64,000 bases of DNA from Streptomyces sp. QL37 (GTDB lineage: Bacteria; Actinomycetota; Actinomycetes; Streptomycetales; Streptomycetaceae). The DNA lies in contig NZ_PTJS01000001.1 of assembly GCF_002941025.1 (NCBI RefSeq), positions 6,958,605-7,022,604 of the forward strand, in the 5' to 3' direction. Positions 41,937 through 55,220 of this stretch are shown here, piece by piece. A program made the position numbers and the translations under genes. Each line of letters starts with the position of its first letter. The first letter of the stretch is position 1. Below the pieces are notes generated by a model. It made no database searches, was not told where the DNA came from, and saw nothing but the letters and a program-made list of their open reading frames with translations.

Positions 41937-42842
41937 GTGAGGATCAAGCGCACCACCAACCCCCGCAGCGGCAGCACCGCGAGACGAACCCGGATCACGG
42001 CCGTCGCAGCCGGCCTCGTGGCCGTCGCCGCACTCGCCGTCCCGGCGGCCAACGCCGACCAGGCCGGAACCTACGGCGCCGACCAGCTCAGAGCGGCCGG
42101 AGCGGCCGTGCTCGAAGCCGACGTCGCAGGCACCGCCTGGAACGTCGACCCGGCGACCGGACGGGTCGTCGTCACCGTGGACAGCACCGTCTCGCAGACG
42201 GAGATCAACCGGATCAAGGAGTCCGCCGGCGCCAACGCGGGCGCCCTGCGCATCGAACACACCCCCGGCAGGTTCAGCAAGCTGATCTCGGGCGGCGACG
42301 CGATCTACGCCTCCAGCTGGCGCTGTTCCCTCGGCTTCAACGTCCGCAGCGGCAGTACCTACTACTTCCTGACGGCAGGTCACTGCACCGACGGCGCCGG
42401 GACCTGGTGGTCCGACTCGGCCCACACCACGGTCCTCGGCACGACCACGGGATCGAGCTTCCCGACCAACGACTACGGCATCGTCCGTTACACCAACACC
42501 TCGGTCACCAAGTCCGGCACCGTCGGCAGCCAGGACATCACCAGCGCGGCCAACGCCACCGTCGGCATGTCCGTCACCCGGCGGGGCTCCACGACCGGCA
42601 TCCACAGCGGCATCGTCACCGGACTCAACGCCACGGTCAACTACGGCAGCGGCGACATCGTCTACGGAATGATCCGCACCAATGTGTGCGCCGAACCCGG
42701 TGACTCCGGCGGCCCCCTCTACTCGGGCACCCGGGCGATCGGTCTCACCTCCGGCGGCAGCGGCAACTGCAGCTCCGGCGGGACGACCTTCTTCCAGCCG
42801 GTCACCGAAGCGCTCAGCGCGTACGGCGTCAGCGTGTTCTGA
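41937..42842 (+). CDS. sprB: Streptogrisin B-like S1 serine protease
   Basis: A 301-residue secreted prepro-protease of the alpha-lytic/streptogrisin group. A signal peptide (to about Ala40) and a short pro-region precede the mature enzyme, which I place at Ile117 ([18 protein letters not shown]), giving 185 residues, the length of S. griseus protease B. The triad is His in TAGHC, Asp in NDYGIVRY and Ser in GDSGGPL. The pro-region acts as a folding chaperone in this family. GTG 41937 follows GGAGGA at 41924-41929. Confidence 0.95.
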
Positions 42843-43028: not shown

Positions 43029-43508
43029 GTGAAACGCATCGGAGTGACCGGTCACCGTTCCATCCCCCGGGAGGCCCAGGACCACGTCCTGGAGGGCCTG
43101 AGGGCGGCACTGTGCGGACACGAGGGCTCCCTGGAGGCGCTCTCCAGCCTGGCCGTCGGGGCGGACCAGCTCTTCGCCGACCTGGCCCTGGCCCAGGGCG
43201 CGGAGCTGACCGTGGTCATCCCCAGCGGGGACTACGAGGAGGGCTTCGCCGACGAGGCGGACCTCGCGCGCTACCGGACGCTCAAGGCCCGGGCCGCCCG
43301 CGAGATCCGGCTGGACTTCCCGCACTCCACCGACGAGGCCTACTACGCGGCGGGCGCCTGGATCGCCGACCACTGCGACCGGCTGATCGCGGTCTGGGAC
43401 GGCCTGCCCGCACGGGGCCTCGGAGGCACCGGCGACATCGTGACGTACGCCCGCAGCCTCGGAAGGCCCGTCACCGTCATCTGGCGCGACGGCGTGGAGC
43501 GCGGCTGA
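43029..43508 (+). CDS. SLOG-domain nucleotide-sensor protein
   Basis: A 159-residue protein with the SLOG (SMF/DprA-LOG) Rossmann-like layout: VKRIGVTGHRSIP at the start, LSSLAVGADQLFADLAL, ELTVVIPSGDYEEGF, and near the end DRLIAVWDGLPARGLGGTGDIVTYAR, the phosphate-binding G-G-T region. SLOG domains are proposed to bind or process nucleotide signals in conflict systems. GTG 43029 follows CAGG; the frame from 42927 is an unlikely Arg-rich extension. It converges with the SLATT-like gene after 10 bp, a pair that recurs in nucleotide-activated effector systems. Confidence 0.72.
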   Translation: MKRIGVTGHRSIPREAQDHVLEGLRAALCGHEGSLEALSSLAVGADQLFADLALAQGAELTVVIPSGDYEEGFADEADLARYRTLKARAAREIRLDFPHSTDEAYYAAGAWIADHCDRLIAVWDGLPARGLGGTGDIVTYARSLGRPVTVIWRDGVERG

Positions 43509-43518
43509 GCCCGCGCGC

Positions 43519-44448
43519 TCACATCCGGTGCCTGACCAGCCAGTCCGTGTGCTCGGGCGAGACGATCCGCTCGGTCTCGAAGACGGCGGCCGCCCACTGC
43601 CGCTCGGTGAGGGTGGTCTCCATCGCGGCCTGCATGTTCTCCAGGTCGTCCTCGACCAGGGAGTGCGCGGTCACCAGCGGGTGGTGACGGCGCATCTCGT
43701 TCCAGGCGAGACAGGCGGCGGCAGCCGCGGAGAACGTCCCGGTGAGCGCGAACGACCCGGCGCCGCCGAAGGTCCGCAGCACGGCGAGGACCAGCGCCGG
43801 GAGCGTCAGCGCGGCGATGGTGCTGGACCAGACGAGCGCACCGCGCCGCGATACCAGCCTGCGTCTGCGGTACCAGCGCCGCTGCTCGATCAGCCGGTCC
43901 CGGATGTACGTCTCCTTGCGTACGGTGAACGCCTTGCCCCGCAACTCCCGCATGGACGCGGTGATGAGACCACCGCCCGAGTCCGCCATCTCCTCCCTCG
44001 GGTCGTCCCACCCCACCTTCCGCAACTCCTGGAGCCCTTCCTCGAGTCGGCTGGCGAACACTGCCTCGGGGTGCTGGACGGACGTGTCGAACGGGGAGCC
44101 GTGGACCGCGTAGCGCCAGCAGTTGGACTTGATGAACTCCGCTGCGGAGCGGTTGAGTTGCCAGTGCGACTTTGCTTTGCGCCGGGAGCCCAGGTAGGTC
44201 GTGATCAGGACACCGAGGTACGCCAACACCGCGATACCATCGAGGAGTTGGATACGGGAACCGATCCCGGCGTGCCAGGGCAGGGCGGCGGGCACGGTGC
44301 CCAGGACGAGCAGGGCGAGCTGGCCGCGGGTGGTGTTGACCGCCTCACGCTGGCGTGCGATGGCCACGGCGTCGGTGTGGTGGAAGAGTGCGGGCAGATC
44401 AGCGCTCCTGAAGACCATGCTCTGCAGCGGTCCTGGAATCGCCGTCAT
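43519..44448 (-). CDS. DUF4231/SLATT-type membrane protein
   Basis: A 309-residue protein with two pairs of membrane helices: LALLVLGTVPAALPW and LLDGIAVLAYLGVLITTYLG near the N-terminus, and IAALTLPALVLAVL plus FALTGTFSAAAAACLAW near the C-terminus. Between them is a charged helical region (RKETYIRDRLIEQRRWYRRRR). This matches SLATT-domain proteins, SLOG-associated membrane effectors predicted to form pores when a nucleotide signal is made. The ATG complement at 44446-44448 gives MTAIPGPLQSMVF; the longer frame to 44808 overlaps fxsA. It is divergent from fxsA. Confidence 0.72.
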   Translation of the reverse strand: MTAIPGPLQSMVFRSADLPALFHHTDAVAIARQREAVNTTRGQLALLVLGTVPAALPWHAGIGSRIQLLDGIAVLAYLGVLITTYLGSRRKAKSHWQLNRSAAEFIKSNCWRYAVHGSPFDTSVQHPEAVFASRLEEGLQELRKVGWDDPREEMADSGGGLITASMRELRGKAFTVRKETYIRDRLIEQRRWYRRRRLVSRRGALVWSSTIAALTLPALVLAVLRTFGGAGSFALTGTFSAAAAACLAWNEMRRHHPLVTAHSLVEDDLENMQAAMETTLTERQWAAAVFETERIVSPEHTDWLVRHRM

Positions 44449-44592
44449 GATCACCCCTGTATTCGATGTAGTGGTCACCCCGGGCGGTGCGCGAATGGGT
44501 AATGGCCCATTTGGAGTAGTCCTGCAAATCACTCGGGTTACGGCTGTACGAGTCGAGTTGCACACCGGGGCCATGAGAGTAAAGTCGTGCCG

Positions 44593-44638
44593 CCGGACAC
44601 TGCAATGGTGCAGGTGCCGGTGCTGTTTCCGTGTCCGG
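44593..44638 (+). promoter_or_regulatory. Stem-loop in the fxsA leader
   Basis: CCGGACAC at 44593-44600 pairs with GTGTCCGG at 44631-44638, enclosing a second dyad CTGCA-atgg-TGCAG (44600-44613). It ends 12 bases before the fxsA ribosome site. The divergent region 44449-44660 is visibly less GC-rich than its surroundings and must hold the promoters of fxsA and the SLATT gene. Confidence 0.4.
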
Positions 44639-44660
44639 AACGAGCCCATCAAGGACGGCC

Positions 44661-44825
44661 GTGAAGACCTACGAATCCACCCCGAGCTTCGCTGTCGCGA
44701 AGCGTCGTGTGCCGCTTGCGAAGATCGACGCATCCGGCAGTGCAGCAGCTGAGAAGATGGGCCGGGTGCTCGCGACGGCTGGCGGCCGCCCGACACAGAT
44801 CTCGACATTCAACTCCTCGCTGTAA
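44661..44825 (+). CDS. fxsA: FxSxx-COOH RiPP precursor peptide
   Basis: A 54-residue peptide starting VKTYESTPSFAVAKRR and ending THE core-like TFNSSL with the stop directly after, the FxSxx-COOH signature of FxsA precursors. GTG 44661 follows AAGGA at 44651-44655. The radical SAM enzyme begins 111 bp later. In this family the Phe and the Ser two positions on are thought to be joined into a three-residue cyclophane by FxsB. The rest of the peptide is a basic leader with no signal sequence. Confidence is high because all three dedicated partner genes follow. Confidence 0.9.
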   Translation: MKTYESTPSFAVAKRRVPLAKIDASGSAAAEKMGRVLATAGGRPTQISTFNSSL

Positions 44826-44936
44826 GAACAGCAGGGCCGCCGCTGCCGTAAAGCGTTAAGAATTCCACCCGTTCGGCCGACCGGCCACTGTGGCTCGTCG
44901 TCCGGATTCACGGCGCGGCTGGACTAGAGTGGTGGA

Positions 44937-47213
44937 ATGACAGGCCCCGCGGTCCCGTTCCGCGAAATCGTTCTGAAGGTTCACAGCAGGTGTGACCTAG
45001 CCTGCGATCATTGCTATGTCTACGAACATGCTGATCAGAGCTGGAGAACCCGGCCGAAGACTGTTTCTGATCAAGTCATCTCCAGAACGGCGCAGCGCCT
45101 CGCTGAGCACGCGAAGACACACGCACTGCCCTCCGTGTCAGTGATCCTGCACGGAGGGGAGCCTCTGCTCGCCGGCCCCGCCCGACTGCGGCGCGTATGC
45201 GAGGAGTTCGGATCGGCCCTGGCGGGCGTAGCCGAGCTGGACCTCCGGATCCACACCAACGGCCTGCAGCTCAGCCCCCGGTACCTGGACCTCTTCGACG
45301 AGTTCGACGTCAAGGTGGGTATCTCCCTCGACGGCGACCGCACGGCCAACGACCGGCACCGCCGATTCGCCGACGGACGCAGCAGTCACCCCCTCGTACT
45401 GAAGGCCGTCGAGCTGCTCCGGCAGGATCGCTACCGCCATCTCAACCTCGGGCTCCTGTGCACCGTCGACATCGAGAACGACCCGCACGCGGTACTGGAC
45501 GCCCTCGTGGCGCTCGACCCTCCGCTCATCGACTTCCTCCTTCCGCACGCCACATGGGACGAGCCGCCGCCCCGCCCGGACGGATCGCCCACGGCCTACG
45601 CCGAGTGGCTCCTCGCGGTCTTCGACCGCTGGCAGGAGGAGGGGGGCCCGGTGCCGGTGCGCCTGTTCTCCTCGGTGCTCTCCACGCTGAGCGGCGGTCC
45701 CAGTCTCACCGAGTCCCTCGGGCTCGCCCCCACGGACCTGGTGGTCGTCGAGACGGACGGTCAGCTGGAACAGGTCGACTCCCTCAAGAGTGCCTACGAG
45801 GGCGCCGCGGCCACCGGGTTCGACGTGTTCTCGCACTCCTTCGACGACGTAGCCGCCCACCCCGGGGTCCGGGCGCGGCAGCTCGGTCTGGCAGGTGTCA
45901 GCGAGACGTGCCGCCGGTGCCCCGTCGTGCGCTCCTGCGGTGGCGGGCTCTACACCCACCGGTACAGCTCGGCGGACGACTTTGACAACCCGTCGGTCTA
46001 CTGCGCCGACCTGGAGGCGCTGGTGCGGGGCATCCAGGCCCGCACCAGCGCGGCCGCCGTGTCCCCGGCCCTGGCCGACCGGAGTGAACTGGCCGCCGAG
46101 CAGCACGACCTGACCCGCACGCTCCTCGCCGGCCTCCACGAGGCGCTGGACGGCCGTGGCGGAGCCCGGTGGGACGAGGCCTGGGGGCTCGCGGGCGTCC
46201 TGGAGACCTCCGGCGAGGGCGCCGCCGGGCTCGACCGCGTCGTGGCGCACCCCTTTACGCGTACATGGCTGCTGGACGTCCTGGAGGGGCTGCACGCCGA
46301 ACGGCCCGAAGCCGTCGGTCAGGCGCTGCGGCTGTCGTCGTACGTCGCGGCTGCCGCGGTGCTGTCCGGTCCCGGCCTGGAGGTGCCCTGTGACTACCGG
46401 GACGGCAGGCTCTTCCTCCCCACCCTCGGTGAGCTGCGGGTCGGCGGGCCGGGCGAGACGGGACGGGTCCTCGTGCGAGCCGTCGGCGAGGGGTTCGCGG
46501 TCCGGCGTGAGGGCGGCGGTGAACGGATCGTCGCGAGCGAGGTGGAGGGGTCCGACTGGCTCCCGGTGCGGCACCTCGCCGCAGGCATCGCGCCCCGGCT
46601 CGCCCTCGACGACCTCGACCCGTTCAGGGACTGCTTCGACGCTCCGGCCGCGCCCCGCCTGAGCCGGGCGGACGCGGATGCCTGGGCCGAGGGTGTCGGC
46701 CGGGCATGGGAGCTGCTGGCGCGGGCCGCGCCCCGGGAGGCGGCGGATGCCGCGGAGAGCCTGACCACGCTGACCCCCCTGGTCGCCGGCCGCAACACGA
46801 AGCGGCCGCACGGCCACGGGGCCGTCGGGCTCGAATGGACGGGGGACACCGGGGAGCTCGCACTCGCGTTGCTGCGCGGTCTGCGAAGGGCCAGGTTGCG
46901 GGCGCTCCTGGACGTCACGGATCTCTACGCGCTGGACGGCGCCTGGGAGTACCAGCTGCCCTGGGAGCGGAATTCGAAGGTCCCCTTTTCCGGGCTCCTG
47001 GCCGGCACATACGAACGCGTGGGACTTTCCCTCCTCGTTCCCGGATTCATGGACGGAGTGCCCGAGGCACTCGACATGATGGACGGGGCGGCCGAACCCA
47101 CTGTCGGAGGAATGCGGCTGCTGGGCTCGCTCCGTGACGAGGTGAGAGGTGTACATGGGACAAGTGGGATGAACATCCTTGTGAATGCCGTGGATCAAGA
47201 ACCTGTTCGATGA
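44937..47213 (+). CDS. fxsB: FxsB radical SAM/SPASM peptide-modifying enzyme
   Basis: A 758-residue radical SAM enzyme. SAM cluster ligands are Cys19, Cys23 and Cys26 (CDLACDHC); VSVILHGGEPLLAG and VGISLDGDRTANDRHRRFADG are typical maturase strands; a SPASM-like cluster of Cys follows at CRRCPVVRSCGGGLYTHRY. The last 350 residues form an extension like the beta-hydroxylase-type domain seen in some FxsB proteins; around HGHGAVGLEW I see no HExxH metal motif, so it may be inactive. The 5' end has unusual codon use (CTA at 44997, TGT codons). Its substrate is the upstream precursor. Confidence 0.92.
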   Translation: MTGPAVPFREIVLKVHSRCDLACDHCYVYEHADQSWRTRPKTVSDQVISRTAQRLAEHAKTHALPSVSVILHGGEPLLAGPARLRRVCEEFGSALAGVAELDLRIHTNGLQLSPRYLDLFDEFDVKVGISLDGDRTANDRHRRFADGRSSHPLVLKAVELLRQDRYRHLNLGLLCTVDIENDPHAVLDALVALDPPLIDFLLPHATWDEPPPRPDGSPTAYAEWLLAVFDRWQEEGGPVPVRLFSSVLSTLSGGPSLTESLGLAPTDLVVVETDGQLEQVDSLKSAYEGAAATGFDVFSHSFDDVAAHPGVRARQLGLAGVSETCRRCPVVRSCGGGLYTHRYSSADDFDNPSVYCADLEALVRGIQARTSAAAVSPALADRSELAAEQHDLTRTLLAGLHEALDGRGGARWDEAWGLAGVLETSGEGAAGLDRVVAHPFTRTWLLDVLEGLHAERPEAVGQALRLSSYVAAAAVLSGPGLEVPCDYRDGRLFLPTLGELRVGGPGETGRVLVRAVGEGFAVRREGGGERIVASEVEGSDWLPVRHLAAGIAPRLALDDLDPFRDCFDAPAAPRLSRADADAWAEGVGRAWELLARAAPREAADAAESLTTLTPLVAGRNTKRPHGHGAVGLEWTGDTGELALALLRGLRRARLRALLDVTDLYALDGAWEYQLPWERNSKVPFSGLLAGTYERVGLSLLVPGFMDGVPEALDMMDGAAEPTVGGMRLLGSLRDEVRGVHGTSGMNILVNAVDQEPVR

Positions 47214-47363
47214 TTCCTGGGTATGGATGACTGAAAAGCGGCGTTGATTGACCGAACGCTGTGGGGGTGGAGCACAGTCCGCTCCGGAATGATGAATTCG
47301 CTCGCACCCTCTCCACAGTCCTGGGATGCGGGTGCTCACACAGGACGGGGGTCGTGTGCACGC

Positions 47364-48665
47364 ATGACGCAACAGCGAGCGGACCATCGGCCGTACTTTT
47401 TTCTGAGCTACGCGCATACACCGGGGTACGGCGGTGGATCGGACCCAGACATGTGGGTCGAACGGCTATTCCAAGATCTCTGCGGTCATGTGATGGCCAT
47501 GACCAATCTTCCCGCGGGATCGCCGGCCGGATTCATGGACCGGGAGATACGCTCCGGCGAGGGCTGGTCCGAACGGCTGGGTAATGTCCTGGCCAACTGC
47601 CGGGTCTTCGTCCCGCTCTTCTCGCCTCGTTACTTCGCCAGCGAGATGTGCGGCAAGGAGTGGTACGCCTTCGAGCAGCGCGCCATTCACCACCGGGCCC
47701 GGTCGAACCAGCCGGCGGAGGCGATCGTGCCCGCGCTCTGGGTTCCGGTGCAGCCGAGCCAACTGCCGGGCCCCGCCGAGCGGTTACAGTTCAACCACCG
47801 GGACTTCGGGGACCGGTACGTCAGCGACGGGCTCTACGGGCTGATCAAACTCACGCTCTTCGCCCAGGACTACGAGCAGGCCGTCTACCAACTGGCCAAA
47901 CGCATCGTCCACGTCGCCGACAGTGTGCAGATCGGCTCGGGCAGACCCCTCGACTTCCGCCTCGTACCCAGCGCCTTCGGTGCGCCGGGCAGCGGAGCGG
48001 GCGCCCCGAGGCCCATGCGGATCACCATCGCCGCCCCTACCCGCCACGACCTGCCGGAGGGCCGGAACCCGGAGTACTACGGCGACAATCCGCAGGAGTG
48101 GAACCCCTACCATCCGGCCGCCGCCAGACCGCTGGCCTATGTCGCCGAAGAGCTCGTGCGCTCCCTCAACTACCAGGCCGTCATCACGTCGTTCGACGAG
48201 GAACCCGGTCAGCGGGAGGGCAAGCAGCCGCCGAGCACCCCCGAGATCCTCCTGGTCGACCGCTGGGCCCTGCGGGACGAGGACCTGAGACGCCGGCTCG
48301 CCGCCTTCGACCGGGAGAACCGGCCCTGGGTGACCATGGTCGTCCCGTGGTGCAGGGAGGACCATCAGAGCAGGGCGGCCGAAGCAGAGCTGACCGAGAG
48401 ACTCGAGCAGACGATGCCGGTCAAGATGCGGCAGGGGCGGGCCTTCTGCCGTGTCGCGGCCAAGGGGGTACCCAGCATGGAGGCGTTCGGCCAGATCCTG
48501 CCCCAAGTGGTCGAGGTGGCCGCCCAGCAGTATCTGAGGCACGCCACGGCCTACCCACCGGCCGGTGGACGGCACAGTGAGCGGACGCGGCTGATGGGGC
48601 CCATGGGCAACACCCAGTTCATACCCGACATGCACGACCCTGCGACGGATGCGGAGGACGTATGA
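47364..48665 (+). CDS. fxsC: TIR-like FxsC protein, contains a TTA codon
   Basis: A 433-residue protein. The N-terminal 150 residues are TIR-like: YFFLSYAHTPG, FMDREIRSGEGWSERL and VFVPLFSPRYFASEMCGKEW. The C-terminal half is another alpha/beta domain (MRITIAAPTRHDLP, WVTMVVPWCRED) of unknown function, conserved in FxsC proteins. ATG 47364 is chosen; upstream frame from 47244 looks non-coding. Leu141 is encoded by TTA at 47784-47786, the only TTA codon I found in the window, making translation dependent on the bldA tRNA. The stop overlaps the FxsT start (ATGA). Confidence 0.88.
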   Translation: MTQQRADHRPYFFLSYAHTPGYGGGSDPDMWVERLFQDLCGHVMAMTNLPAGSPAGFMDREIRSGEGWSERLGNVLANCRVFVPLFSPRYFASEMCGKEWYAFEQRAIHHRARSNQPAEAIVPALWVPVQPSQLPGPAERLQFNHRDFGDRYVSDGLYGLIKLTLFAQDYEQAVYQLAKRIVHVADSVQIGSGRPLDFRLVPSAFGAPGSGAGAPRPMRITIAAPTRHDLPEGRNPEYYGDNPQEWNPYHPAAARPLAYVAEELVRSLNYQAVITSFDEEPGQREGKQPPSTPEILLVDRWALRDEDLRRRLAAFDRENRPWVTMVVPWCREDHQSRAAEAELTERLEQTMPVKMRQGRAFCRVAAKGVPSMEAFGQILPQVVEVAAQQYLRHATAYPPAGGRHSERTRLMGPMGNTQFIPDMHDPATDAEDV

Positions 48666-51600
48666 CAGCCGGTCGTGACGGGCGCATCGTCACTTTCTAC
48701 TCGTACAAGGGCGGTACGGGGCGCACCATGGCCCTGGCCAACACCGCCTGGATCCTGGCCGCCAACGGCAAGCGGGTGCTGGCCGTCGACTGGGACCTGG
48801 AAGCACCCGGGCTCCACCGGTTCTTCCATCCCTTCCTCGACCCCTCGACGCTCGGGGCCACCACCGGCGTGATCGATCTGATCACCGAGTACGCCTGGGC
48901 CGCGACCAACCCCGCCCAGCGGGCCGACGACTGGCACCGCGACTACGCCCGCATCCAGCCGCACGCGGTCTCGCTCACCCCCGAGGCGCTCGGCTGGGAG
49001 TTCCCGAGGGGCGGCACCCTCGACTTCGTCTCCGCCGGACGGCAGAACCGCGAGTACTCCGCGACCGTCTCCACCTTCGACTGGGACAACTTCTACGACC
49101 GGCTCGGCGGCGGCCACTTCTTCGACGCCCTGCGGGACGACATGAAGGCCAACTACGACTACGTCCTCATCGACAGCCGTACGGGCCTCAGCGACATCGC
49201 CGACATCTGCACCGTCCACCTCCCGGACGTGCTCGTCGACTGCTTCACCCTCAGCGACCAGTCGATCGACGGCGCGGCCTCCGTCGCCCGGCAGATCGCG
49301 GAGCGCTACACCGGCCGGCCCATCTCGATCTTCCCCGTCCCGATGCGGATCGACGAGGGCGAGAAGGAGAAGGCCGACGCCGGGCGGGCGCTGGCCCGGC
49401 TGAAGTTCGACCGGCTGCCCCGTGACCTCTCGGGCGACGAACTCACCGCCTACTGGGGCGCGGTGGAGATCCCGTACCGCCCCTACTACGCGTACGAGGA
49501 GACCCTGGCCACCTTCGGTGACGAGGCGGGGCTCAGCAACTCGCTGCTGTCCGCCTTCGAGCGTCTCACCGCGGTGGTCACCCAGCAGGAGATCACCTCG
49601 ATGCCCCCGGTGGGTGAGGAGGTCCGGCTGCGCATCCGCGACGCGTTCACCCGGCGCAGGCCCGCGCTGCCCGCCGATCTCTTCCTAAGCTATGTGGCGG
49701 AGAACCGCATGTGGGCCGACTGGATCGAATCGGTCCTCACCCGCGCCGGGTTCCGGGTGGTCCCGCGCGACGTCTCCGCCGAGCCCGGACCCGTGGACGC
49801 GAACCGCGCCGTCGAGACCGCGACCCGCACCGTCGTCCTGCTCTCCAGCGCCTACCTCAAGTCCCAGCGGGCCGTGGACCTCTGGGAGCGCGCGGTCTCC
49901 GAGGACCCCGGTGGCGGGAGGCGTCAGCTGTTGCCGCTCAGGGTCAGCGACGTCCGGCTCTCCGCGCCGTACATCGACCGCAACCCGGTCGACCTGTTCC
50001 GGCTGGACGAGGTGCACGCCACCACGGCCCTGATGCGCGCCCTGGACCGGCCGGTGCAGCTCGGCGACGGTATGTCGCCCGGCCCCCGCTTCCCCGGCAC
50101 CGTGCCGAGGATCTGGAACGCGCCGCCGCGCAACCCCGGCTTCACCGGCCGCTCCCTGGTCCTGGAGCGGATGCGTGACCAGCTCGGCGGTGGCATGGCC
50201 GTCGTGCTGCCGCAGCCGCAGACCCTGTACGGCCTCGGCGGAGTCGGCAAGACACAGGTCGCCCTGGAGTACGTGCACCGCTTCATGGCCGACTACGACC
50301 TGGTGTGGTGGATATCGTCCGAGCAGATCGACGACGTCGTGGCCAGCCTCGCCGAACTCGCCGTACGGCTGGGTGCCCAGGGCGGCGACGACATGGCGGC
50401 AGCCTCGCAGGAAGCCGTGGACCTGCTGCGGCGGGGGGTGCCCTCGGAACGCTGGCTGCTGGTGTTCGACAACGCCGACGACCCGGAGCGCCTCAGCCGC
50501 TACTTCCCGCAGGGCGGCTCCGGCCACATCCTCGTCACGTCCAGGAACCAGTCCTGGTCGCAGCACGGTGACGCGCTGCCCGTCGACGTGTTCCTGCGGG
50601 AGGAGTCGATCGAGCACCTCCAGCGCCGTGCACCGGGGCTGAGCGACGAGGACGCGGCCCAGGTGGCCACCGCCGTCGGAGACCTGCCGCTGGCGGTCGA
50701 GCAGGCGGCGGCGTGGATCGCGGAGACCGCGACCCCGATCGACACCTATCTGGAGCAGTTGGCCCGGCAGGCCCCGGAGGTCCTGGCGCTGAACCAGCCG
50801 GCCGGTTATCCGCAGCCCGTCGCCGCCACCTGGAACATCTCCATCGAACGCCTCAAGGAGCGTTCGCCCGCAGCGGTGCGTCTGCTCCAGCTCTGCGCGT
50901 TCTTCGCGCCCGAGCCGATCTCTGCCAATCTCCTGTACAGCAAGGAGATGATCGAGGCGCTGAAGCCGTACGACCCCTCGCTCCAGGAGAAGCTGGTCCT
51001 CGGCCGGGTCATCCGGGAGATCGGCCGCTTCGCCTTGGCCAAGGTCGACCAGGTGTCGAACTCCATCCAGGTGCACCGACTGGTGCAGGCGGTGATCAGG
51101 GCCCAGCTCAGCGAGGAGGAGCAGCGCGAGGCGAGGCATGTCGTCCACCGCATCCTTGCGGGTGCCCGGCCGGACGACGACGAGCCGATCGACAACCCGG
51201 AGACCTGGCCGCGCTTCGCCACGATCTGGCCGCACCTCGGTCCGTCGGACGCGCGCAACTGCAAGGACCCGGAGACCCGCAGGCTGCTGATCGACCGGGT
51301 GCGCTACCTGTGGAAGCGGGGGGACGTCCGGACGGCGGGCCGGCTCGGGGACGAACTCCGCGACACCTGGCGGGACATGCTGGGCAACCAGGACCTGCAG
51401 TACCTCTACCTCTGCTTCCACCTCTCCAACATCCTGCGCACCCGGGGCCGGTACGTGGAGGCCAAGGAGCTCGACGAGGTGACCCTGGGCAGGCAGCGGG
51501 AGGTGCTGGGGCCGGAGCACCCCCACACGTACATGACCACCAGCAGCCTGGCCATCGACCTCGGGCTCCTCGGTGACTACGGCAAGGCGATCGAGCTGGC

Positions 51601-52594
51601 GACCGCGGCGCACGAGGGATTCAGCCAGATCTTCCACGACAGGCATCCCCGGACGCTGGCCGCGGCGAACAACCTGGCGCTGAACCTGCGGAGCGTCGGA
51701 CAGTACGCCCGGGCCAGGGAGATCGACCAGGACGTCTACGACCTGCGGTCCGAGGTCCTCGGTCCCGAGCACCCGTACAGCCTGTCCTCCGCCATCTCAC
51801 TGGCACGTGATCTGCGCGAGGTGGGGCGGTACGAGGACTCGGTCGGTCTGCTCAGCCGGACGTACGACGCGTACAAGGCCACCCTCGGCCGGACCTACCC
51901 CACCACGCTCAGCGCCGCGAAGAGTCTGGCGGTCTCGCTGCGCAGGGCGGGGCAGCTGGAGGACGCCCGGAGGCTGACGGTGGCCACCCGGGCGAGGTAC
52001 CGGGCCAAGTACACCGCGGCCAACCCCGAGTCGCTGGCCTGCGACCTCAACATGGCGTCCGACCTGTTCGCCGCGGGGGAGGCCGTCGAGGCCAGGGACA
52101 CCGCGCAGGAGGTGGTGGACCAGTACATGAACGTGCCGGGGGAGCACCACCCGTACACCCTGGCCGCGCAGAACAACCTCGGCGCCTACCTCGTGGGGAC
52201 GGGTGCGCACCTGGAGGCGGAGAAGCTGCTGACGCGGGTGGTCGCCTCGATGCGTGAGGTCTTCGGCCGCGAGCACCCGAACACGCTGTTCTGCGTCATG
52301 AACCTGGCGAACGCGACGGCCGGGCGGGGCGATCTCGAACTCGTCCTGGAGACGGAGCGGCGGGTCTCGGGCCAGCTCCGTGATGTTCTCGGAGCGCATC
52401 ACCCGGAGACCCTGGCCATGACGTCGAACCTCGCGGTCACGCTCGGCGCGATGGGACGCAAGGACGAGGCGCTGAGGGTGCGGGCGGAGACGGGGGACGA
52501 ACTGGCACGCCAGCTCGGCGACGAACACCCGCTCACCCGGATAGCGAGGGACGAGCGGAGGTTCTGGCGCGAGCTGGAGCCGATGTCGGTGTGA
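48662..52594 (+). CDS. fxsT: FxSxx-system MinD-like / TIR / NB-ARC / TPR protein
   Basis: A 1310-residue STAND-class protein. Residues 1-320 are a MinD/ParA-like ATPase with a variant P-loop (KGGTGRTMALAN, Arg for Lys) and VDWDLEAPGLHRFF. From about 338 a TIR domain begins (LFLSYVAENRMWADWIESVL), with VVLLSSAYLKSQRAV. NB-ARC begins near 490, P-loop GLGGVGKTQ at 524, LLVFDNADD as Walker B, and VHRLVQAVI near 803 as the wHTH end. From about 900 there are TPR repeats of the kinesin-light-chain type (LGPEHPHT, LGPEHPYS). It is coupled to fxsC. Confidence 0.92.
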   Translation: MTAGRDGRIVTFYSYKGGTGRTMALANTAWILAANGKRVLAVDWDLEAPGLHRFFHPFLDPSTLGATTGVIDLITEYAWAATNPAQRADDWHRDYARIQPHAVSLTPEALGWEFPRGGTLDFVSAGRQNREYSATVSTFDWDNFYDRLGGGHFFDALRDDMKANYDYVLIDSRTGLSDIADICTVHLPDVLVDCFTLSDQSIDGAASVARQIAERYTGRPISIFPVPMRIDEGEKEKADAGRALARLKFDRLPRDLSGDELTAYWGAVEIPYRPYYAYEETLATFGDEAGLSNSLLSAFERLTAVVTQQEITSMPPVGEEVRLRIRDAFTRRRPALPADLFLSYVAENRMWADWIESVLTRAGFRVVPRDVSAEPGPVDANRAVETATRTVVLLSSAYLKSQRAVDLWERAVSEDPGGGRRQLLPLRVSDVRLSAPYIDRNPVDLFRLDEVHATTALMRALDRPVQLGDGMSPGPRFPGTVPRIWNAPPRNPGFTGRSLVLERMRDQLGGGMAVVLPQPQTLYGLGGVGKTQVALEYVHRFMADYDLVWWISSEQIDDVVASLAELAVRLGAQGGDDMAAASQEAVDLLRRGVPSERWLLVFDNADDPERLSRYFPQGGSGHILVTSRNQSWSQHGDALPVDVFLREESIEHLQRRAPGLSDEDAAQVATAVGDLPLAVEQAAAWIAETATPIDTYLEQLARQAPEVLALNQPAGYPQPVAATWNISIERLKERSPAAVRLLQLCAFFAPEPISANLLYSKEMIEALKPYDPSLQEKLVLGRVIREIGRFALAKVDQVSNSIQVHRLVQAVIRAQLSEEEQREARHVVHRILAGARPDDDEPIDNPETWPRFATIWPHLGPSDARNCKDPETRRLLIDRVRYLWKRGDVRTAGRLGDELRDTWRDMLGNQDLQYLYLCFHLSNILRTRGRYVEAKELDEVTLGRQREVLGPEHPHTYMTTSSLAIDLGLLGDYGKAIELATAAHEGFSQIFHDRHPRTLAAANNLALNLRSVGQYARAREIDQDVYDLRSEVLGPEHPYSLSSAISLARDLREVGRYEDSVGLLSRTYDAYKATLGRTYPTTLSAAKSLAVSLRRAGQLEDARRLTVATRARYRAKYTAANPESLACDLNMASDLFAAGEAVEARDTAQEVVDQYMNVPGEHHPYTLAAQNNLGAYLVGTGAHLEAEKLLTRVVASMREVFGREHPNTLFCVMNLANATAGRGDLELVLETERRVSGQLRDVLGAHHPETLAMTSNLAVTLGAMGRKDEALRVRAETGDELARQLGDEHPLTRIARDERRFWRELEPMSV

Positions 52595-52813: not shown

Positions 52814-53698
52814 TCAGCCCACCGCGGCCTCCCGTTCGTCCAGCAGCCAGTTGAGCACCTCGGGCAGCACGGACAGCGCGTCGAAGTGCGCCGCCGCCGG
52901 TTCCAGCACGGCGGTGGCGCCCGGTATCTGTTCGGCCAGCCACCGGGAGTGGCCCACCGGGGAGAACACGTCCTTCACGCCGTGCCACAGCATCACGGGA
53001 CACCGGATGTCGGCGGGATCGAACCCCCACGGCCTGCAGAACGCGAGCGCGTCGTCGATCCAGCCGTACGCCGATGTGCGCAGCCCCTCGCGGAAGTTGG
53101 CGAGCAGCATCGTGCGGATCCCGGCGTCGTTGACCACGGTGCGGTCGCTGTCGGTCAGCTCCCGGCGCAGGTCGTCCAGGAGCCGGGCGGGGTTCTGCCG
53201 GATCTCCGCCGAGCGGCTGATGAAGGATTCCGCCAGCCCGTCCGGGTCCGCCGCCGCCCTGGAGTACGCGAGCACGTTCGAAGCGGCCATCCCGTCGAAC
53301 CAGTCGAGCCCTTCGGCATCCGGGGGAGCCAGGCTGACCAGGGCGGCGCCACGGGTGACCCGGTCGGGCATCAGCGCGGCGCAGGCCAGAGCGTGCGGTG
53401 CGCCGCCGGAACGGCCGACCACGGCGAAGCGTTCCAGGCCGAGGGAGTCCGCGATCGCCCGTACGTCCTCGGCGACGTCCATCACCCGCCGCCCCGGAAG
53501 CCGGTCCGAGCCGCCGTACCCCGGGCGGTCGTAGGCGATCAGCTGCATGTTCCGCTGGTAGAGGACCATCCCGCGTGGAGCGGGCCCCAGCCGGCTGCCG
53601 GGCATGCCGTGCAGGAGGAACACCGGTCTGCCGCGGGGGTCCCCCTGTCGCTCGACCATCAGATGCCGTCCGTCGGCCACGCGCACCCGACTCCGCAC
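52814..53698 (-). CDS. Alpha/beta-fold hydrolase
   Basis: A 294-residue cytoplasmic hydrolase. The oxyanion region is HGMPGSRLGP, the nucleophile elbow VGRSGGAPHA places Ser98, the acid is Asp in HGVKDVFSP and the base His in AAHFDALSVL. The GTG complement at 53696-53698 has GGAGGGA just upstream and is preferred over the frame to 53896, which begins in the divergent promoter region. Substrate unknown; no signal peptide. It is divergent from the streptogrisin D-like gene. Confidence 0.85.
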   Translation of the reverse strand: MRSRVRVADGRHLMVERQGDPRGRPVFLLHGMPGSRLGPAPRGMVLYQRNMQLIAYDRPGYGGSDRLPGRRVMDVAEDVRAIADSLGLERFAVVGRSGGAPHALACAALMPDRVTRGAALVSLAPPDAEGLDWFDGMAASNVLAYSRAAADPDGLAESFISRSAEIRQNPARLLDDLRRELTDSDRTVVNDAGIRTMLLANFREGLRTSAYGWIDDALAFCRPWGFDPADIRCPVMLWHGVKDVFSPVGHSRWLAEQIPGATAVLEPAAAHFDALSVLPEVLNWLLDEREAAVG

Positions 53699-53881
53699 GA
53701 CGTCCCTCCGCTCATCACCCCGCTCGGTCCGGACACCAACTGCCCGGTCTTTACTGACAGTTCGATGATGACCCATCGGAGTCGATACCGGCACTCCCTG
53801 TCGGAACGCGCCGGTGGTGTTTCGGGACGTCCGGGAGCATTCGGTGGTGTTCGGCTTCAGGAGTGCCCTCCACGGCATCCG

Positions 53882-53916
53882 GACTCCAGGAGTCATTACA
53901 GGACAGGACTAGTCCT
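53882..53916 (+). promoter_or_regulatory. Two adjacent perfect palindromes upstream of the protease gene
   Basis: GACTCC-a-GGAGTC at 53882-53894 and AGGACTAGTCCT at 53905-53916 lie 23 bp centre to centre (about two helical turns), in the 436-bp region between the hydrolase and the protease. They look like paired operator half-sites. The rest of that region (53699-54134) holds no gene. Confidence 0.5.
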
Positions 53917-54134
53917 CACCCGCTGCCGACGGGCCATCGCCCCGGGTGTTCGCGAACGGAACCGACGTGGTGCGACACCCGGGTTGTGGACGCGGCGCGG
54001 GCGAACCGTCGTCTTCGTGTGCGCGTCCGGAAGTCGACCTTGTGTGCTATCGGCCGCATCGGAATAGTGGGCGCCCCATCCTCCGTGCTCCGGACACCCC
54101 ACTTGTCCGTGCACGGCCCCACAGGAGGTCGAAG

Positions 54135-55220
54135 TTGAAGCACCGACGCATACCCAGGAAGCGTGTGGCCCTGGCCGGATCGGCCGTCCTCGCACTGGTC
54201 GCGGCAGGAGTCACGTTCCAGACCGCGAACGCGAGTGACGACGTACCCGAGTTCACCGCGAAGACCCTCAGTGCCCACTCGGCCGGAAGTCTCGCCACCA
54301 CCCTGGACAAGGCCCTCGGCGGTGACAAGGCGGGCTCGTACTACGACGCCAAGGCCAAGAACCTCGTCGTCAACGTCATCGACGAGGCGGCGGCCGAGCA
54401 GGTCCGCCAGGCGGGCGGCAAGGCCAGACTCGTACAGCACACGCTCGCCGAGCTGACGAACGCGCGGCAGATCCTCACCGACAAGGCAACCATCCCCGGC
54501 ACCTCGTGGGCGGTCGACCCGGTCAGCAACAAGGTGGTCGTCACGGCCGACCGCACGGTCGACGGCGCGGCCTGGGACAAGCTCGGCAAGGTGGTCGACG
54601 GGCTCGGATCCAAGGCCGAACTCAAGAAGTCAGCAGGGGAGTTCAAGCCCCTCATCGCGGGCGGCGACGCCATCTGGGGCGACGGCGGACGCTGCTCGCT
54701 CGGCTTCAACGTGGTCAAGGGCGGCGAGCCGTACTTCCTGACGGCCGGTCACTGCACCGAGGGGATCACCAGCTGGTCCGACACGCAGGGCGGCGCGGAG
54801 ATCGGAGCCAACGAGGGCTCCAGCTTCCCTGACAACGACTACGGCCTGGTCAAGTACACGTCGGACGTCGAGCACCCCAGCGAGGTGGACCTCTACAACG
54901 GCTCCACCCAGGCGATCACCCAGGCCGGCGACGCGACCGTCGGCCAGACCGTGACGCGCAGCGGCTCCACCACCCAGGTCCACGACGGTGAGGTCACCGC
55001 ACTGGACGCCACGGTCAACTACGGCAACGGCGACATCGTCAACGGCCTCATCCAGACCACGGTCTGCGCCGAGCCCGGCGACAGCGGCGGCGCGCTCTTC
55101 GCGGGCGACACCGCGCTCGGTCTCACCTCGGGCGGCAGCGGTGACTGCTCCGCCGGCGGCGAGACGTTCTTCCAGCCGGTGCCCGAGGCGCTGGCGGCCT
55201 TCGGCGCCGAGATCGGCTGA
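54135..55220 (+). CDS. sprD: Streptogrisin D-like S1 serine protease
   Basis: A 361-residue secreted prepro-protease. Start is TTG 54135, with AGGAGG at 54123-54128; all longer frames lack a site, and [19 protein letters not shown] is the normal signal peptide of this family. The pro-region is long (about 145 residues). The mature enzyme begins near [18 protein letters not shown]; triad His in TAGHC, Asp in NDYGLVKY, Ser in GDSGGAL. It is a paralogue of the protease at 41937 but with a larger pro-region, as in S. griseus SprD. Confidence 0.94.

Follow-up and report, generated by a model that had tools for sequence, protein, structure and literature searches.

The window, a stretch of 64,000 nucleotides corresponding to positions 6958605-7022604 of its source contig, carries the four genes of an FxSxx-COOH system in a single array. 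All four are recognised by models over their curated cut-offs (TIGR04268, TIGR04269, NF040588/TIGR04276 and NF040586), which bears out the sequence-only reading that fxsA, fxsB, fxsC and fxsT are present together. They span 44661-52594 and are adjoined, on the fxsA side, by genes for a SLOG-fold protein and a SLATT membrane protein. These two genes had been described as lying beside fxsA and divergent from it; the adjacency holds, and so does the divergence of SLATT, but the SLOG gene instead converges with SLATT. Between 41.9 and 55.2 kb, the genes and features follow in this order:

41937..42842, + strand: S1 protease with Trypsin and alpha-lytic prodomain matches, retained at empty sites; flank, outside the unit
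43029..43508, + strand: SLOG-fold protein, YpsA/DprA-like, 159 aa, GTG start
43519..44448, - strand: SLATT membrane protein, 309 aa, with two SLATT domains (SLATT_3, SLATT_1 and DUF4231 over cut-off) and four hydrophobic segments by hydropathy
44558..44585, + strand: promoter-like block upstream of fxsA (TTGCAC, 16 nt, TAAAGT), conserved in alignment
44661..44825, + strand: fxsA, FxSxx-COOH precursor peptide, 54 aa (TIGR04268, E 1.5e-12)
44937..47213, + strand: fxsB, predicted radical SAM/SPASM cyclophane-forming maturase with CxxxCxxC and an inactivated HExxH extension (TIGR04269, 591 bits; NF040587, 469 bits)
47244..48665, + strand: fxsC, TIR-like protein keeping the TIR glutamate E139 in the glutamate column, with one TTA codon at 181 (NF040588, TIGR04276)
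48662..52594, + strand: fxsT, KGGVGR ATPase, degenerate TIR (leucine in the glutamate column), NB-ARC and TPR, STAND/NLR-like (NF040586, 1036 bits; NF047398; TIR_2, NB-ARC and TPR matches)
52814..53896, - strand: alpha/beta hydrolase (PF00561, E 6e-19), recurring at relatives' loci and counted in the unit
53946..55220, + strand: second S1 protease (S1 protease match), flank, outside the unit by empty-site comparison

The SLATT protein belongs to its family by SLATT_3 and SLATT_1 matches over the curated cut-offs; its open frame extends to 44808, and the start at 44448 was picked because the matches of its relatives begin there. Among 42 aligned SLATT-fxsA intergenic regions, the window's own included, the block at 44558..44585 has the highest conservation, and a scan of this region for the sigma-70 consensus returned no sites, the block included. 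The SLOG protein has no sequence-family match, and phmmer against the PDB returned a single one (E 0.096). Its structure model is confident and shows the Rossmann-like fold of the SLOG superfamily, of YpsA type, with YpsA as the closest solved relative and SLOG chains of ThsA among the fold matches. Domain scans recognised no ABC transporter among the unit's own genes, and no vWA, MoxR or VMAP genes, as in the VMAP-ternary system (PMC7159879), among the genes scanned around it. A second FxsT-type gene (832 bits) lies at 1064421-1066874 of the source contig, away from any fxsC locus.

Both FxsC and FxsT contain a TIR region, and the two differ at the [ST]xxCxxE position. The TIR profile of FxsC aligned to the plant TIRs L6 (E 0.005) and RUN1 (E 0.01), and E139 falls on their glutamate, which we take to be the catalytic one. 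This glutamate is found in 131 of 136 aligned FxsC rows. At the five exceptional loci (L146, L149, L179, L185 and L200), where it is replaced by H or Q, an extra stand-alone TIR gene directly upstream of fxsC keeps it, so that each aligned locus has a glutamate-bearing TIR. In FxsT, the same column holds L, V, A, F, T or I in 137 of 138 rows and a gap in one (compare 3h16), and the KGGTGRT motif (137/138) and the NB-ARC P-loop are retained. From these motifs, we read FxsC as the likely enzyme and FxsT as the likely switch. The structure model of FxsC is poor (pLDDT 55; best Foldseek E 0.19), and a whole-FxsC profile found no match in the PDB. Among rows that are related sequences, the FxsC glutamate is kept in 109 of 110 at SLATT-positive loci versus 21 of 25 at SLATT-less ones; since it is also kept at the latter, SLATT cannot be all that the TIR product serves.

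A survey for enrichment of SLOG and SLATT beside fxs loci had been proposed along with the sequence-only reading, and the enrichment was found. Among the matches listed for 297 genomes of a single family, FxsC occurs in 155 genomes and SLATT relatives occur in 143: 139 have both, 16 FxsC alone, 4 SLATT alone and 138 neither. The corresponding Fisher tests treat kin genomes as independent, and thus their p-values overstate the association. FxsC, SLATT, FxsT and SLOG counts alike are drawn from the best matches listed. Among these, 50 SLATT proteins are at least 42% identical to that of the window, and for 45 of these the gene is no more than 10 kb away from a listed FxsC. The other five were inspected by locus (L226-L230): L227 and L228 proved to be ordinary fxs loci, which brings the close SLATT genes at fxsC loci to 47 of 50, and three lie beside eroded or partial fxs remnants. 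L226 retains fxsA and FxsB up to residue 429, and L229 retains FxsB up to residue 664 and FxsT up to 178; L230 has within 7 kb just a weak FxsC match (E 5e-11) and an acetyltransferase match, with a further FxsC 17 kb away. The genomes with SLOG matches of at least 51% identity are precisely these 50, the SLOG start lying no more than 1134 bp from that of SLATT, and weaker SLOG matches (37-48%) are located elsewhere, as far as these were compared among the matches listed.

The association was followed at the level of the loci in 79 nearest FxsC relatives of the window, all of them Streptomyces records (one labelled [Kitasatospora] papulosa), whose genomes may overlap with those of the family survey. 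FxsC and FxsT are both present at 75 of these loci, with SLATT and SLOG at 69/75 and a hydrolase relative at 73/75; where FxsB and flanks of at least 2 kb are available, SLATT, SLOG and hydrolase are found in 65 of 65. Sixty further fxsC loci of the family (L141-L200), which continue the FxsC-score order of the first ones apart from a few omitted rows and one drawn from a higher rank, carry SLATT in 40, SLOG of the window type in 16 and the hydrolase in 48. Hydrolase relatives are found at 121 of 139 loci. SLATT is absent from 20 of these 60 loci and window-type SLOG was not found in 44, SLOG being missing from most loci with a distant SLATT; the SLATT-less third still keeps fxsB. SLATT is not an obligatory part of fxs loci. 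Because another 25 loci (L201-L225) were picked for having no SLATT listed within 10 kb, the tally of 56/80 is not that of a random sample.

SLATT could have been a partner of any TIR-NB-ARC-TPR gene. This was rejected after comparing 33 genomes of the same genus among the matches listed: 16 of them have an FxsT-type protein over the cut-off and no FxsC, and none of the 16 has a SLATT relative, versus 10 of the 12 with both FxsT-type protein and FxsC. By this pattern of presence, the partner of SLATT is the FxsC-type system and not TIR-NB-ARC-TPR genes in general.

Sites lacking the system were identified in 30 FxsC-less Streptomyces genomes with a DUF1684 gene as bait, 12 of the 14 matches above 290 bits giving the empty-site loci. 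At matches above 45% identity, SLOG, SLATT, fxsB and fxsT are all without a match in 12 of 12, with the hydrolase left in 2, and the same genomes are also without SLATT among the matches listed. All 12 have DUF1684 and one or more S1 proteases, as two separate S1 genes in 10 and as one in 2. These sites, together with the presence and absence pattern, exclude that SLOG and SLATT are mere syntenic background, and SLOG, SLATT, fxsABCT and the alpha/beta hydrolase behave, in these comparisons, as a single heritable unit in Streptomyces. A role of the S1 proteases in peptide processing was considered; they are treated as flank because they are retained at the FxsC-less sites. They surround the unit in direct orientation (41937-42842 and 53946-55220) and are neighbours of each other where it is absent, and recombination between them could be a route of its loss.

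Gene order varies around a recurrent association. In 79 cases, the SLATT gene lies upstream of fxs on the opposite strand with a convergent SLOG; in 9, it lies downstream on the fxs strand, also with a convergent SLOG; and in 44, it lies downstream on the opposite strand without SLOG. In seven of the 9, the core is inverted and its neighbours are unchanged. Independent insertion upstream and downstream in Streptomyces was thus dropped as an explanation, L125-L128, L141, L143 and L144 being inversions of the fxs core, and only loci with changed flanks and those from other families count as independent. Among the latter, L244 carries SLOG, SLATT, an FxSxx open frame, fxsB, fxsC and fxsT consecutively on one strand, with 21 bp between SLOG and SLATT, and L254, from another family, has a SLATT gene upstream of fxsB on the same strand. 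Six more loci of the same set (L241, L242, L243, L245, L248 and L253) have FxsC and the hydrolase and no SLATT match. SLATT, with or without SLOG, thus recurs next to fxs genes both in other genera and in two further families.

Reading of TTA codons requires the bldA tRNA, and these codons are concentrated in the unit. At the Streptomyces-record loci, TTA occurs in 38 of 74 fxsC and 29 of 70 SLATT genes versus 10 of 679 neighbour genes, at several alignment positions, and 52 of 68 loci have it in at least one of SLATT, fxsB, fxsC and fxsT. The window itself has one in fxsC (codon 181) and none in SLATT. At the remaining loci, SLATT shows a smaller excess and more genes share in it (SLATT 8/40, hydrolase 6/47, fxsB 17/72 and fxsT 11/65, versus 8/499). 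This distribution in fxsC and SLATT suggests bldA-type control, and a response often tied to development.

Several known systems share part of this composition. In Thoeris, the TIR protein ThsB signals to the SLOG-domain protein ThsA. The locus follows the same TIR plus SLOG logic, and SLOG chains of ThsA match the fold of the window SLOG, which, unlike them, is nearer to YpsA and stands alone. PADLOC gave no match in five unit proteins and the Pfam scans found no SIR2 domain, so that no ThsA-type protein was recognised beside the TIR gene. Regarding the peptide, IPR026335 presumably corresponds to the FxsB family. MscB (IPR026335), a triceptide or 3-CyFE enzyme, links C4 of Phe to C-beta of Ser (PMC11002830), a Phe-Ser linkage as expected for F-N-S in FxsA; however, the portion of that work available to us treats these products as chemistry and gives no immune partners. 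FxSxx peptide and AP-ATPase genes have been described as a conflict system, with the peptide proposed to be a toxin or a signal (Kaur et al. 2020, PMC7159879). The available part of that description shares with the window the FxSxx peptide, the radical SAM/SPASM enzyme, the AP-ATPase with TPRs and a MinD/ParA-like domain, standalone there; it differs in having a metallopeptidase as core, whereas FxsB of the window has an inactivated HExxH part, and in linking no SLOG or SLATT to FxSxx, whereas SLOG, SLATT and hydrolase are constant partners here in Streptomyces. YpsA-like SLOGs have been predicted to act in cADPR sensing, and SLATT proteins to be membrane effectors regulated by ADPR derivatives and encoded beside TIR genes in phages (PMC9503650). 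These TIR-SLATT and TIR-SLOG systems resemble the locus in their TIR enzyme candidate, YpsA-like SLOG and predicted SLATT effector, but the available text describes neither a modified peptide nor a STAND TPR switch. The sequence-only reading knew of no described link, and no published link between FxSxx and SLOG/SLATT was found in the open-licence literature, supplements excluded: PMC7159879, in the part seen, names all three unlinked, and the accessible part of PMC13118837 contains nothing on SLATT, SLOG, TIR or FxSxx. No report of a biological role for FxSxx peptides was found in the literature searched.

We infer every functional arrow in what follows from the linkage, unit behaviour and motif retention observed above. 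The reading that we tentatively favour, at a little short of an even chance, is an NLR-like conflict or cell-death pathway running from the FxsA peptide through FxsT and the TIR signal of FxsC to SLOG and SLATT. FxsB would put a Phe-Ser ring onto the FxSxx tail of FxsA, and the modified peptide would hold or trigger FxsT, the STAND switch with a degenerate TIR. Once active, FxsT would assemble and recruit FxsC via TIR-TIR contact, and FxsC, with its glutamate-bearing TIR, would convert NAD+ to an ADP-ribose-type signal. SLOG would bind or process this signal and the SLATT protein would respond by opening the membrane, last steps that the published predictions, in the accessible part of PMC9503650, support; the hydrolase may trim the peptide or limit the signal. 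The earlier working idea of a membrane effector that responds to peptide sensing by FxsT/FxsC is partly supported, in that SLOG and SLATT as signalling or effector arm would fit the FxsC glutamate, the YpsA-type fold and these predictions; SLATT is lacking, however, at 20 of 60 loci. The favoured pathway also has to accommodate the 44 of 60 loci without window-type SLOG, the six loci with hydrolase but no SLATT, the 4 genomes with a SLATT relative and no FxsC among the matches listed, and L226 and L229, where SLOG-SLATT is kept beside eroded fxs genes and the pair may act alone. In Streptomyces and some of its relatives, the genes of this small ring-containing peptide are inherited jointly with signalling genes of immune type and with the gene of a predicted membrane effector, which suggests a part for the peptide in the control of an immune-like or cell-death response. 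If true, an NLR-like immune or cell-death circuit of bacteria would include a post-translationally modified peptide among its components. With a candidate TIR enzyme, a nucleotide-sensor fold and a predicted effector at the membrane as conserved partners, the role of FxSxx peptides becomes a pathway that can be tested, for which the empty sites and the natural SLATT-less loci are ready comparisons.

Other readings of the same parts were weighed. In one, rather doubtful, the cyclophane tail of FxsA would be a self-mark guarded by FxsT: failure of maturation or loss of the peptide under attack would lead FxsT and FxsC to make an ADP-ribose-type signal and SLOG and SLATT to cause membrane death, with TTA in the TIR and membrane genes as a developmental lock. 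It is unlikely that SLOG-SLATT is a separate defence module sharing the fxs island, with co-travel from a common site and no mechanistic link. Such independence would fit the convergent arrangement of the pair in the window, its absence or survival at the SLATT-less and eroded loci just named, and the SLATT relatives L231 and L232, which have no fxs genes in 20 kb; yet the pairing persists despite changed flanks (L145, L150, L158 and L183), through the seven inversions of the fxs core and in other families (collinear L244, also L254), and none of the 16 genomes with FxsT paralogues and no FxsC has SLATT among the matches listed. Quite unlikely, in turn, is a developmental switch, in which the same parts would act in sporulation or antibiotic production, as a cell-death or signalling step dependent on bldA, and not in phage defence. 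The TTA enrichment described above speaks for it, but TTA may equally mark any costly or acquired gene, and the lack of FxsC in 142 of 297 family genomes, among the matches listed, argues against core development. Least probable, and improbable in itself, is the reading of the peptide as a RiPP antibiotic or signal, secreted or intercellular, with SLATT and hydrolase for export, immunity or turnover and FxsT/FxsC as receptor: even though SLATT and the hydrolase are the genes closest to the peptide operon and the unit's own genes include no recognised ABC transporter, SLATT families are predicted to be effectors and not transporters (PMC9503650, in the part available), and a third of the sampled loci keep fxsB without SLATT.

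Further genes accompany some of the loci. In another genus of the family (g14), a second, distant SLATT gene often lies 18-45 kb from fxsC, with no fxs match around it in L233 and L234. An AAC(3)-like acetyltransferase gene, absent from the window, separates fxsB from fxsC at 61 of 139 loci (PF02522, E 2e-64; L173:10998-11786, - strand) and possibly encodes an optional peptide-tailoring enzyme. At L148, L174, L178, L181 and L186, fxsT is followed downstream by three other genes (about 380, 940 and 350-400 aa), the first of which matches TIR in L186; they could be an alternative partner module, and of these five loci only L148 also carries SLOG-SLATT.
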